DNA of 32,901 bases, from NCBI GenBank assembly GCA_937942475.1, contig CALDEP010000493.1:1-32901 (forward strand). Reading direction: 5' to 3'. This document shows, one piece after another, positions 2,148 to 5,547 of this stretch (its first letter is position 1; the number at the start of each line of letters is the position of its first letter). The position numbers and the translations under genes were made by a program. Source of the DNA: an uncultured Aureispira sp. GTDB taxonomy: Bacteria > Bacteroidota > Bacteroidia > Chitinophagales > Saprospiraceae. The notes beneath the pieces are model-generated. The model was not told where the DNA came from, searched no databases, and worked only from the letters and a program-made list of their open reading frames with translations.

Positions 2148-3089
2148 ATGAACAAGAAATTAATTTTAGCGCATATTGCTATGTTCTTTGTTGCCTTGAT
2201 TTACGCTGCCAATTTCACGATTGCCAAACCTGTCATGTCAGGCACAACACCTTATGTTCAACCTTTTGGTTTTATTATGATGCGTGTTTTGGCAGCAACT
2301 AGTTTATTTTGGATGACACATTTCTTTTTTGTGAGAGAAAGCATTGATCGAAAAGATATTTGGCGGTTTGCTATTTGTGGTGTTTGTGGCGTTGCAGGCA
2401 ATCAATTGTGCTTTTTTTATGGGCTTAATTTGACCACGCCTATTAATGGCGCTTTGATTATGTTAACCACGCCTATTTTAGTGCTGCTGCTTTCCATGCT
2501 CGTTTTCAAAGAAAAACTAACGGGTCTGAAAGGTGGAGGTATCGTCTTGGGTTTATCTGGCGCCACCTTGCTTATTTTAAATAATGGTGCAGCCATTCCC
2601 GATGCGCCCAACCCAATGTTAGGTAATATTTTTATTGGTATCAATGCTGCTTTTTATGCTATTTATTTAGTTTTAGTAAAGCCCTTGATGTCCAAATACT
2701 CTCCTATTACCACCCTGAAATGGGTCTTTCTCTTTGGGACCATTTATGTATTCCCTTTTGGATGGAATCAGATGATGGAAGTTGATTTTCAAGCCTTACC
2801 CACCTCTATTATTTGGAGCATTGGTTTTGTCTTGTTTTTTGTCACCTATTTGGCTTACCTACTCAATGGATCTGCCCTGTCTGTTGTAAAAGCATCCGTT
2901 TCGAGTACCTACATTTATTTACAGCCTTTGTTAGCTAGTATCATAGCCGTTGCGGCAGGAAAAGATAAAATTACATTTATGATGTTCTTAGCTGGAATTC
3001 TAATTTTCGCAGGGGTCTTTTTAGTTTCTAAACGACCTAAAAACGAAGCGAATGAAGCCTTAAAAGCCACCACAAATGAAGCTAATTAA
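2148..3089 (+). CDS. EamA/DMT-family transporter
   Basis: This 313-residue protein is almost entirely hydrophobic, with about ten membrane helices arranged as two EamA repeats (roughly residues 9-146 and 155-293). That is the normal size and layout of the drug/metabolite transporter superfamily in the inner membrane. Typical traits are the N-terminal helix with AANFTIAKPV, the GLNLTTPINGALIMLTTP segment at the end of the first repeat, and a short charged C-terminal tail after helix ten. The substrate cannot be predicted; members export amino acids, nucleosides or other metabolites. The acyltransferase gene starts 32 bases downstream on the same strand, so the two are probably co-transcribed. 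Confidence 0.9.
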   Translation: MNKKLILAHIAMFFVALIYAANFTIAKPVMSGTTPYVQPFGFIMMRVLAATSLFWMTHFFFVRESIDRKDIWRFAICGVCGVAGNQLCFFYGLNLTTPINGALIMLTTPILVLLLSMLVFKEKLTGLKGGGIVLGLSGATLLILNNGAAIPDAPNPMLGNIFIGINAAFYAIYLVLVKPLMSKYSPITTLKWVFLFGTIYVFPFGWNQMMEVDFQALPTSIIWSIGFVLFFVTYLAYLLNGSALSVVKASVSSTYIYLQPLLASIIAVAAGKDKITFMMFLAGILIFAGVFLVSKRPKNEANEALKATTNEAN

Positions 3090-3121
3090 GCCCTCACTTA
3101 GTCGAAAAACAAAGCCCATAA

Positions 3122-4117
3122 ATGCTTGCACCAAAGACCTATTTGCCTGTTATCAATAGCCTTCGTGGATTGGCTGCCACCGCTATATGCTTCTATCATT
3201 TTGTATTAAGTACCGCCAATTATGTAGAAGCGGTCTGGGTAAGAACTCTTTTTTATTATGCTCAATATGGCGTTCCTTTATTTTTTGTCATCTCTGGAAT
3301 TGTATTGCCTTTAGCGATGTTCAAAAAGGAGTACCAACTCAAGCATTGGTCTACTTTTATGCTCAAACGATTGGTGCGATTAGAGCCGCCTTACTTATTT
3401 TCCTTGCTATTAGCAAGTGCTTATTTGATCTTTCAAACCTATCGGCATTCTGGTGTTGTAGCGTTTTCTGGTGTTAATTTTTTGTTGCATTTAGGCTATT
3501 TAATTCCATTTGTAGAGGGGCAAGAATGGATCAATCCTATTTATTGGTCTTTGGCAGTTGAGTTTCAATTTTATTTATTTCTAAGTCTTGCTTTTATTGG
3601 ATTCAAACAGGCTTTATTCAGTCGTCGATTGTTGATGTATAGTTTAGTATTGGGCGCCTCTTTTATTAGTAATGAAAAAGCCTTGATTTTCCGTTGGTTG
3701 CCGCTATTTTTGGTTGGAATTATTTATGTATTACAACAATATAAAATCATTTCTTTTAAGGAATATGCCCTGGTTACTTTGCTCTCTTTTGGCTTGATTT
3801 ATTATCATCTAGATTTGCCTAATTTATGTGTGGCAATTTTCACCTTGAGTATGGTGCATTATTTTCCCAATTACAATCCTAAATACAGCAATTGGCTAGG
3901 AAAAATATCTTATTCCTTGTATTTAATTCACTTGATTATTGGACAAGCTTTGGTCAATTTTTTATCCCATATTTATCGACTTCCCTACCAAAAATTCATC
4001 GTTATTCTTCTAGGATATGCCCTCAGTGTTTTCGCTGCTTGGATACTCTACAAATGGATAGAACGCCCTAGCAAACAGCTTAGTTCTAAGTTTAAATACC
4101 CCACGAATAAATCGTAA
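3122..4117 (+). CDS. Acyltransferase-3 family membrane protein
   Basis: This 331-residue protein with about ten membrane helices belongs to the OafA/acyltransferase-3 family, which O-acylates surface sugars or lipids. Family motifs are visible: INSLRGLAA with R15, the proposed catalytic histidine in ICFYHF (H26), the arginine-rich motif KRLVRLEPPY (R83, R86), and the YWSLAVEFQFYLF helix around residue 145. It is a stand-alone membrane domain with no periplasmic SGNH domain. It follows the EamA transporter by 32 bases and ends before a hairpin at 4148. The acceptor is unknown; surface polysaccharide or lipopolysaccharide modification is the family's usual role. Confidence 0.9.
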   Translation: MLAPKTYLPVINSLRGLAATAICFYHFVLSTANYVEAVWVRTLFYYAQYGVPLFFVISGIVLPLAMFKKEYQLKHWSTFMLKRLVRLEPPYLFSLLLASAYLIFQTYRHSGVVAFSGVNFLLHLGYLIPFVEGQEWINPIYWSLAVEFQFYLFLSLAFIGFKQALFSRRLLMYSLVLGASFISNEKALIFRWLPLFLVGIIYVLQQYKIISFKEYALVTLLSFGLIYYHLDLPNLCVAIFTLSMVHYFPNYNPKYSNWLGKISYSLYLIHLIIGQALVNFLSHIYRLPYQKFIVILLGYALSVFAAWILYKWIERPSKQLSSKFKYPTNKS

Positions 4118-4287: not shown

Positions 4288-5037
4288 ATGGCAAATAAAT
4301 TACATGAATTGCTTGCCCTAGAGCAAGACCGAAAAAATAAAGGAAACCAAGCAATTGGCGAGACCAAAAAATTATTTGAAAAGAAAGCCCCTCATTTTGA
4401 CGGCATGACCAAGCGTTATGTTTCTATGGAGGAAAATTCAGAGCAAATTCCTGACGAGCGCAAAGAAATTGTCACAACAGTCAAAGCAAGTTTGGAAGAA
4501 GCCATTGAATTGATTTCAAAAGGAATTGATGCTCATCTTTCTAAAGAAGAAACCAATGCTTCTGGTGTCGCACGTGCGGAATTAGTCGTTGGAGATACTA
4601 AATTAGGTACTTTCTCTGCAACTTCATTATTAGCATTAGAAAGTCATTTAAATAAACTAAAAGACCTTTATGCTCAAATTCCTATTTTGGAAACAACCAA
4701 AAAATGGCAATTAGATACGCAACAAGGCATCTATAGAACAGAAGAAGAAGTAAAATTCCGTTCTGTCAAACGTCCAAAAGTAATTGTTAAGTACGAAGCG
4801 ACAAAAGAGCATCCTGCCCAAACAGAATTACTATACTTGGATTTTCAAGTGGGAAAATACGAAACCGTCTATACGTCTGGACGCATCCCTTTGGCACAAA
4901 AAAATGAAATGGTACAACGCGTGAATCAGCTTTTGGAAGCAACGAAAGTCGCTCGTTCAAAAGCCAATAACGTAGACGTTAAAAACATTAAATTGGCTAA
5001 AAAAGTATTTGAATTTATCCATAAGGATATCTTATAA
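4288..5037 (+). CDS. Uncharacterised soluble protein of the 'KLHELLA' type
   Basis: The product is a 249-residue, charged, apparently cytoplasmic protein without signal peptide or membrane helix. It begins MANKLHELLALEQD and carries YEATKEHPAQ in its last third and FEFIHKDIL at the end. From memory, these signatures belong to a widespread bacterial and phage family of about 240 residues without known function (I think it is catalogued as a DUF, possibly DUF7873). I also recall relatives lying near RNA-repair genes, but I cannot verify either point. The length is normal for that family. Immediately downstream, on the same strand, is a cluster of tRNA-like sequences ending in a terminator. A functional link between protein and RNA is inference only. 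Confidence 0.75.
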   Translation: MANKLHELLALEQDRKNKGNQAIGETKKLFEKKAPHFDGMTKRYVSMEENSEQIPDERKEIVTTVKASLEEAIELISKGIDAHLSKEETNASGVARAELVVGDTKLGTFSATSLLALESHLNKLKDLYAQIPILETTKKWQLDTQQGIYRTEEEVKFRSVKRPKVIVKYEATKEHPAQTELLYLDFQVGKYETVYTSGRIPLAQKNEMVQRVNQLLEATKVARSKANNVDVKNIKLAKKVFEFIHKDIL

Positions 5038-5099: not shown

Positions 5100-5265
5100 T
5101 AGCAATAACAGAGCTAGCCTCAGCTTTAGATGAATTGTTATTACAATCGAAATCATGTGATTCAGACAATGGTTCATGATTCGGTTAATCAGTTTTAGTC
5201 TTTCGCTCTGCAGCTTTATAGTTTAACACTTTCTTTTGAAGTTATATCTCTTCAAAGCCTAGTGC

Positions 5266-5293
5266 ACAAGTTCGATTCTTGTCTGTTCCACCA
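5266..5293 (+). tRNA. tRNA-like 3' piece: T-arm, acceptor strand and CCA
   Basis: A perfect T-arm is present: stem ACAAG/CTTGT around loop TTCGATT. It is followed by the acceptor strand CTGTTCC, discriminator A and encoded CCA. The matching 5' acceptor strand (GGAACAG or similar) is not found at tRNA distance upstream. The sequence before it contains only a degenerate possible D region and a hairpin, CTTTTGAAG with CTTCAAAG (about 5233-5258). So this is either a decayed tRNA or the 3' part of a rearranged one. The 5' strand that fits it, GGAACGG, lies 60 bases downstream at 5353. Confidence 0.6.
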
Positions 5294-5352
5294 ATGAATT
5301 TCATACAAAACAATTTGTTTTTGTGTTTCATTCATCTTCAAAAAACTTAATA

Positions 5353-5427
5353 GGAACGGTAGCTCAGTGGCAGAGCAAGGGTTTCTGTTCATAAAGGAGA
5401 ATAATAGTCCTAAGAATTTCAGGTTCG
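5353..5427 (+). tRNA. tRNA-like 5' piece: acceptor strand and D-arm
   Basis: GGAACGG, TA, then a perfect D-arm (GCTC, AGTGGCA, GAGC) at 5353-5376 is a textbook tRNA 5' end. What follows is not: AGGGT (5378-5382) can only pair with GTCCT (5407-5411) around an oversized 24-base loop. The sequence then reaches a T-arm left half, CAGGTTCG (5420-5427), which runs straight into the next tRNA-like unit without a right half. GGAACGG pairs over all seven positions (one G-T) with the CTGTTCC of the upstream 3' piece, giving a reversed order of halves. Confidence 0.5.
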
Positions 5428-5508
5428 CTCTCGTGGCCAAATTGGTAAAGGCGTTTGTCTGAAGAACAAATTAGAAATAGATTACAGGTTCGAGTCCTGT
5501 CTAGAGCA
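5427..5508 (+). tRNA. Nearly complete tRNA-like sequence, anticodon loop GAA
   Basis: The acceptor strands GCTCTCG and CTAGAGC pair with one mismatch. The D-arm is GCC/GGC with a Leu-like loop containing TTGGT. The anticodon arm TTTGT/ACAAA encloses CTGAAGA, so the anticodon would be GAA (Phe). A 13-base variable region follows, then a perfect T-arm ACAGG/CCTGT around TTCGAGT. CCA is not encoded. A D-arm and variable region of class II (Leu/Tyr-like) type combined with a Phe anticodon is odd, and the first base overlaps the preceding unit. It may be a degenerate or repurposed tRNA instead of a working tRNA-Phe. Confidence 0.5.
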
Positions 5509-5547
5509 TGGCAGTCGCAAGGTAAGAGCGGCTGCCACCTTTTTTTT
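5509..5547 (+). terminator. Strong intrinsic terminator ending the tRNA-like region
   Basis: TGGCAGTCGC (5509-5518) pairs with GCGGCTGCCA (5528-5537) over 10 bp with one G-T, around a 9-base loop, followed by CC and eight T. It starts directly after the tRNA-like unit. The stem itself looks somewhat tRNA-derived (GCAAGGTAAGAGC), but the terminator reading is simpler. Confidence 0.8.

Follow-up and report, generated by a model that had tools for sequence, protein, structure and literature searches.

What do the transfer RNA (tRNA)-like fragments found 3' of a DUF7873 gene in an uncultured Aureispira sp. represent? The stretch analysed, here called the window, comprises positions 1 to 32,901 of contig CALDEP010000493.1 (assembly GCA_937942475.1), and all features described in it lie on the forward strand. 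The preliminary description noticed a T-arm, an acceptor strand and CCA placed before the matching 5' acceptor strand and D-arm, and it offered three explanations: a tRNA gene in circularly permuted order, an ordinary tRNA cluster in decay, or an RNA that mimics tRNA. The comparison of homologous loci, which show the permuted layout with covarying stems, supports the last of these. Judged from sequence, the fragments are parts of one conserved structured non-coding RNA of about 460 nucleotides (nt). Its core is shown by covariation to be a circularly permuted tRNA mimic, composed of a T-arm, a loop-closed acceptor stem, a D-arm and the top of an anticodon stem.

Permuted tRNA-like unit

The permuted order was read directly from the window. 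The T-arm (ACAAG-TTCGATT-CTTGT, 5266-5282) is followed by the acceptor 3' strand CUGUUCC (5283-5289), A 5290 and an encoded CCA (5291-5293). These last bases open a variable loop of 63 nt (5290-5352), after which come the acceptor 5' strand GGAACGG (5353-5359), UA and the D-arm GCUC-AGUGGCA-GAGC (5362-5376). The acceptor strands form seven pairs, one of them G.U. The strands GCCU (5257-5260) and GGGU (5379-5382) pair as the 3' and 5' sides of an anticodon-stem-like helix with two G.U pairs. The 5' piece had been described as stopping in the middle of a T-arm with the next unit starting inside it; positions 5377-5426 proved instead to form a conserved linker that precedes the next tRNA.

The relatives, when aligned, keep the same permuted order with compensatory change in the acceptor stem. 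Two mutually alike congeners (G004 and G008) carry the acceptor strands GGAGCGG and CTGCTCC, a two-sided change with respect to the window. Covariation was calculated over 33 units of other loci, from which the covariance model R1 was built; this model scores 66.7 bits over 5257-5385 of the window. The covariation was 0.825 against 0.204 +/- 0.017 for shuffled data, a figure to be read together with the controls of the unit finder, since the finder requires at least six of the seven acceptor pairs and so selects on acceptor pairing. Among the 33 units, 97.3% of cells are paired, the D-stem being the weakest helix (90.9%), and two-sided changes number 154 against 43 after shuffling and hit all seven acceptor pairs. 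The finder's hits are judged by its controls. The antisense control gave 0/28 in the GTDB-plus-window set, 0/14 in the phage/actinomycete set and 2/174 in the IMG/VR set, and mononucleotide shuffling gave 0, 0 and 0.6%, respectively. The other side of the DUF7873 gene gave 1/28, 3/14 and 16/174 in the same sets, where hits can arise from tandem ordinary tRNAs. Intact ordinary tRNAs in relatives, or stems without covariation, had been named beforehand as signs against the proposal, and neither was seen.

The tRNA character of the unit extends beyond its helices. Over 259 units, G53 (0.98), C61 (0.98), Y48 (0.97) and a purine at position 15 (0.99) are conserved, none of them demanded by the finder, and A14 (0.97) is favoured in its scoring. 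The window has A3-U70. T1 or A1 is present in 0.16 of the units and N73 is varied. The 4-bp (base pair) anticodon-like stem exceeds permuted partners in each of four groups: in the best register, 9 of the 17 Bacteroidota units form it (at most 6 after permutation), and 39 of the 76 one-unit viral units do so in the register shifted by one base (at most 8 after permutation). The loop joining the acceptor strands spans 4-249 nt across loci. The 103 one-unit loci have 79 different acceptor 5' strands, and CCA is encoded in 67 of them; in the two-unit loci (n=83) it is encoded in 40 first and 28 second units.

Folding of the RNA gave z values against shuffles of -5.2 for the relative L093, -3.6 for L101 and -2.2 for the window RNA. 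When the window RNA is folded without constraints, its minimum-energy structure retains the T-arm, acceptor stem and 3' hairpin. In the L093 fold the tRNA mimic caps a long helix, and the folds of relatives predict a mimic seated on a long helix. The proposed strands of this helix in the window are 5247-5252 and 5395-5400, UCUCUU/AGGAGA, which read UUUCCU/AGGAAA in G008 with one two-sided difference; a long helix stands at this place in the L093 fold and is not in the minimum-energy fold of the window RNA.

Association with DUF7873

The DUF7873 (PF25283) gene at 4288-5037 (Pfam E 7.1e-79) encodes 249 amino acids, the presumed protein partner of the RNA. By blastn, the block was found in three congeners (G001 with 83% over query 1-723; G004 and G008 with 86% over query 32-513), and beyond these only short weak matches were seen among 40 genomes. 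The genome of the window holds one copy, its other matches being short with E of 0.017 or more. Among 60 genomes, made up of the window's own and those of 59 relatives, six carry DUF7873. R1 reached 63-72 bits in exactly these six genomes, and the best score in the other 54 was 60.5 bits, given by a YrlA-like RNA in G002; the co-occurrence of RNA and DUF7873 is 6/6 against 0/54 above 61 bits. As ordinary tRNAs nearby are also matched by R1, with lower scores (56-57 bits in L307-L309), a cut-off of about 61 bits was applied or the loci were checked by eye. In a set of 395 genomes of the phylum, DUF7873 was found only in the window's own.

A scan of GTDB contigs returned 29 DUF7873 loci, all labelled with Bacteroidota groups except one labelled only 'bacterium'. 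The permuted unit lies 3' of the gene in 17 of the 28 loci having at least 500 nt downstream (27 from GTDB and the window); L088, with less than 500 nt, was left out. For the 12 DUF7873 genomes in which the RNA was not seen beside the gene, R1 located it elsewhere in 10 (G451-G456, G458, G459, G461, G462), five of which hold two RNAs. The RNA of G459 is cut by the contig end, that of G461 was accepted at 56.9 bits, and R1 hits were sorted by eye between the DUF7873-associated RNA and YrlA-like units. One further locus, L100, was left out of all counts. There (3001-3450) the DUF7873 gene breaks after about 80 codons and continues as the 3' part of the RNA, with AUG ACG UGA, a tRNA (ARAGORN anticodon CATC) and the hairpin; the break is either a deletion or an assembly join.

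The linkage is also seen in phages. By tblastn, 73 phage records and 4 replicons of actinomycetes were found to encode DUF7873, and one or two permuted units follow the gene in 13 of 14 regions (11 phage, 3 actinomycete), in a stretch that is mostly unannotated; no permuted unit was found after DUF7873 in Microcoleus phage L110. From the IMG/VR scans, which listed 326, 264 and 27 loci encoding the protein with possible overlap among them, 80, 80 and 27 were retained. L283 and L285, which repeat earlier contigs, were left out, as were 9 of 183 loci with less than 500 nt downstream. A permuted unit lies within 1 kb downstream of DUF7873 in 160 of the resulting 174 loci. L117 and L273 are one contig, which is counted twice. 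Of the 11 phage regions, 8 have annotated tRNA genes no more than 2-3 kb from DUF7873, and ARAGORN reported at least one tRNA, the unit's own included, in 101 of the 183 IMG/VR loci. By eye, the two-unit RNAs L101, L103, L105, L106, L112 and L113 share (U/C)U(A/C)U(C/U)GCUC between their units, and five of the six have CUUAAA(C/U)G(U/C) after the second unit, L113 carrying a variant.

The co-occurrence suggests that the RNA and DUF7873 probably form a ribonucleoprotein common to phages and bacteria. The AlphaFold2 model of the protein had a predicted local distance difference test (pLDDT) score of 80.2 and a predicted template modelling (pTM) score of 0.70. No PDB sequence match was obtained up to E 5, PADLOC gave no match for three members, and no paper on DUF7873 was found in the open-licence literature. 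Kinship with Cas7 was considered and rejected, the Cascade chains appearing in the Foldseek list only at E 0.1-0.8 with TM (template modelling) of about 0.1.

Triplet complementary to the anticodon of the neighbouring tRNA

In the Bacteroidota RNA, comparison of loci showed that a triplet on the strand leaving the anticodon-like stem complements the anticodon of a tRNA encoded in the same locus. At 5383-5394 of the window stands UUC UGU UCA UAA, whose first triplet is complementary to the GAA anticodon (5461-5463) of the next tRNA and whose stop is at codon 4. In 15 of 16 loci of the bacterial set, the triplet lying at +6 beyond the D-stem complements the anticodon of the next tRNA exactly. 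None of 100000 label permutations reached this number (permuted maximum 12), and none of the 15 matches is a wobble match. Fourteen loci found afterwards by the model gave eight matches at +6, four at +9 and two with none, the +9 offset having been admitted only after these loci were viewed. With +6 or +9 allowed, the match is present in 28 of 31 bacterial loci, a total that counts near-identical loci separately (three Aureispira, L093-L095 and the UGG loci in L322-L324) and includes L099 only under a looser rule for 4-letter anticodons. The count omits L331, which overlaps an ordinary tRNA, and L328, L334 (contig end), L335, L336 and L339, which have no tRNA within 150 nt.

The matches cover 11 codons (GGC, AUG, GUG, UUC, UGG, CUG, GGG, AGG, GAC, CUC and AGC). 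Pairs of tRNA bodies which are 75-79% alike with different anticodons (L097 vs L092/L094; L338 vs L337) each have their own codon. A stop follows early in most of the bacterial set: it is at codon 3 in 19 of the 28 matched loci, two sense codons standing before it with the matched one included, at codon 4 in five and at codon 2 in none. Where the partner tRNA has an anticodon loop of 8 nt (L322, L323, L324, L099), the match is at +9 in four of five cases. In the viral loci, pairing of linkers with anticodon loops was not above that with permuted loops (8/24 against a mean of 5.5; 4/15 against 2.9), and pairing in the 5' region of two-unit loci was 10/15 against 7.2, a value reached by 29 of 300 permutations.

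The tRNA or tRNA-like unit with the Phe anticodon GAA occupies 5427-5508 (Rfam RF00005, 58.2 bits), with a 13-nt variable region and CCA not encoded; it is the only element that ARAGORN, and Rfam at gathering score, report in this region of the window. Two further tRNA-Phe(GAA) genes lie elsewhere in the same genome (L001, L019). In L001 (7197-11685, G000:C238), 24 tRNA genes lie in an array on a single contig; the array stands apart from the scattered tRNA genes of this genome and looks like a tRNA array of a mobile element.

Outer domains of the RNA

The 5' domain (5109-5210) was delimited from homologue versions by eye, hexamer periodicity and the L093 fold. CAGAG (5109-5113) may pair with CUCUG (5206-5210); matching versions in homologues, by eye, are UGGAG/CUCCA, AAGAGC/GCUCUU and AGGAG/CUCCU, and the pairing is present in the L093 fold and absent from the window fold. 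The domain contains the UUUCGCUC motif and ARNYUN-type hexamers, AGCCUC AGCUUU at 5116-5127 and AGUUUU AGUCUU at 5191-5202. After masking of the permuted units, a spacing of 6 nt between AG dinucleotides is seen at 2.2-2.4 times the rate expected in all three groups, against 1.0-1.1 upstream. Four or more tandem copies of ARNYUN are found in 36 of 186 loci; upstream the count is 0 of 186. The repeat may be a peptide, a self-pairing repeat or a protein-binding repeat; read as coding, the hexamers would alternate K/R/S and L/F, and no common start codon was seen by eye. That DUF7873 reads the repeat is a guess.

The RNA appears to end at a 10-bp, intrinsic-terminator-like hairpin (5509-5547), in which 5509-5518 pairs with 5528-5537 around the loop AAGGUAAGA, followed by a run of eight T. 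AAGG-type loops were seen by eye in homologues too. By eye, the loop position (window 5519-5527) carries an AAGG/AGGNUA-type motif, often in bacterial RNAs and in many viral RNAs, and shows CGGAUAUG in actinophages. The loop motif exceeds the need of a plain terminator (window, L093, L196, L101).

Proposed action and alternatives

The reading favoured as a whole, with a probability of about 40%, is a DUF7873 ribonucleoprotein in which the tRNA mimic and a mini message act on the ribosome in the manner of transfer-messenger RNA (tmRNA). The RNA would present a tRNA shape with a mini message attached directly to it, made up of a sense codon, a further codon and a stop. Its own tRNA would be docked on, or would read, the first codon, DUF7873 would hold the assembly of RNA and tRNA, and the assembly would release or redirect ribosomes as tmRNA does. 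In viral members lacking the codon match, the common part would be tRNA mimicry alone. The ribonucleoprotein, the docking of the tRNA and the action at the ribosome are the steps that we infer, and the tmRNA-like reading would explain the triplet, the stop and the mimic together. Ribosome rescue spread by phages and independent of SmpB, in which the DUF7873 ribonucleoprotein places the mimic beside a sense codon and stop and its own tRNA reads the codon, is doubtful.

Several observations weigh against the tmRNA-like reading. The acceptor sequences and N73 are widely variable and G3.U70 occurs in at most 0.02 of the 259 units, which makes charging by one synthetase unlikely, and 36 of the 103 one-unit loci have no encoded CCA. 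The minimum-energy fold of the window RNA lacks the D-arm, the long helix and the tRNA cloverleaf. Matches without a stop in the first four codons are found in L085, L090, L099, L325, L330 and L337; L089, L324@1145 and L329 fail the triplet test, and the matches are not all independent. The viral one-unit loci gave no triplet match (0/33 at +6, 0/33 at +9), so that the mini message is a reading of the bacterial set. Ordinary cell tRNAs could read the codons, and a dedicated tRNA therefore fits docking in cis as well as translation. The unit is missing in 14 of 174 IMG/VR loci, and no such RNA was found in the DUF7873 genomes G457 (ordinary tRNAs) and G460 (YrlA-like units only). Finally, neither PDB nor BFVD gave a match to the DUF7873 model at E 0.001.

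The alternative that survives best, although somewhat unlikely, is a tRNA decoy. The ribonucleoprotein would show tRNA-shaped units, namely the permuted mimic and the extra tRNA, to enzymes that cleave or modify tRNA, and by soaking up or blocking these enzymes it would protect phage or host tRNAs, the triplet serving only to anchor the second tRNA. The tRNA-rich context in phages (8/11 records; ARAGORN tRNAs in 101/183 IMG/VR loci) and the exactness of all 15 matches at +6 agree with it, as does a proposal for YrlA (PMC7790460). The decoy accounts neither for the third-codon stop of 19 among the 28 matched loci nor for the CCA that 67 of the 103 one-unit loci encode.

A scaffold resembling Y RNA, where the module tethers an effector to DUF7873 in place of Ro60 (Y RNA joins Ro60 and PNPase), is improbable. 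The topology of the module is that of YrlA, and Rfam YrlA matches below the gathering score of 69 were obtained for L093 (31.8 bits) and L101 (32.9 bits). Against this, the window gave no YrlA hit even at E 10, a Ro60/Rsr (TROVE) gene was found in 0 of 20 genomes, the window's own (88.5% complete) included, and the extra tRNA, the triplet match and the stop are, to our knowledge, not features of Y RNAs.

A true permuted tRNA gene would have its halves excised and ligated on the anticodon side into a working tRNA, while the acceptor loop would be cut open by RNase P and tRNase Z. The gene order is right, the acceptor has 7 bp, CCA is often encoded and the stems are at normal geometry, and to this extent the permuted gene of the preliminary description holds. 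A working permuted tRNA is very unlikely, since no closed anticodon loop of the U33-N3-R37 kind was seen by eye on the strands, the stem in L093 runs on below into a long helix, T1 or A1 is present in 0.16 of units and N73 is varied; a bulge-helix-bulge splicing route is not known in bacteria. A relic of a decayed or recombined tRNA cluster, which the tRNA-derived look of the neighbouring tRNA and the position of several phage loci within tRNA clusters might suggest, is refuted by the covariation and deserves next to no weight, because the homologues are widely conserved, keep the permuted layout rather than intact tRNAs, have two-sided changes in all seven acceptor pairs and the terminator-like hairpin, and the antisense and shuffle controls are near zero.

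The RNA class is unlisted by Rfam at its own thresholds and, in 160 of 174 viral loci, adjoins a single protein family lacking an assigned fold or function, members of which turned up in several hundred viral contigs. Within one RNA locus the codon and the anticodon covary, and this gives a direct handle on mechanism. If the proposals above hold, tRNA-rich phages and several bacteria would gain a ribonucleoprotein that faces translation or protects tRNAs.

Comparison with known RNA systems

No published description of the RNA was seen among the literature matches listed, judged by titles and starts of abstracts of open-licence papers. Large structured RNAs near phage tRNA genes include GOLLD and ROOL, and the RNA shares this setting; neither was matched by Rfam at gathering score in the loci scanned. 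In stem I of the T-box riboswitch, a codon in an internal loop pairs with the tRNA anticodon. The same kind of pairing is proposed here, but the T-box is a synthetase leader, whereas this RNA has its own tRNA in cis and stands 3' of its own gene or alone; no Rfam T-box hit was obtained for it. Algal and archaeal permuted tRNA genes also have the 3' half before the 5' half. They differ from this RNA, in which no closed anticodon loop was seen and whose strands run into further domains.

By shape, the nearest relative is YrlA (Y RNA-like, RF02553), which has the same circularly permuted tRNA-like module. The acceptor end of YrlA is closed by a loop. A permuted superposition has been published (PMC11472068). 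The partner of YrlA is TROVE, whereas the presumed partner here is DUF7873; the second tRNA or second permuted unit, the triplet match and stop (bacterial set), the ARNYUN repeats and the often encoded CCA are further differences. Membership in YrlA was rejected on the missing TROVE gene and an Rfam score far below threshold, the latter being a weak test, as the threshold is likewise missed by a Y RNA-like unit that lies next to TROVE in G460 (47.9 bits).

Model R1 also finds such Y RNA-like units. In G460 (C228), a genome with DUF7873, L335 and L319 (47.9 and 34.5 bits) lie directly before a TROVE gene. The congener G002, in which neither DUF7873 nor TROVE was found, has a YrlA-like permuted RNA of 38.3 bits at about 600-690 of L339 (G002:C2), its 7-nt acceptor strands joined by six bases. 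Deinobacterium chartae is the sole carrier of DUF7873 and the sole carrier of TROVE among 14 control genomes.

A divergent tmRNA was also considered and rejected, as a canonical tmRNA is present in the same genome (G000:C137) and G3.U70 is missing. The RNA differs from tmRNA in its full D-stem, the lack of G3.U70, its mostly two sense codons instead of a tag and scores below Rfam thresholds. Permuted two-piece tmRNA genes (PMC3985003, PMC3978253) are the nearest relative by gene order: both have an acceptor piece, a spacer and a coding piece, and both join a tRNA-like domain to a short message with a stop.
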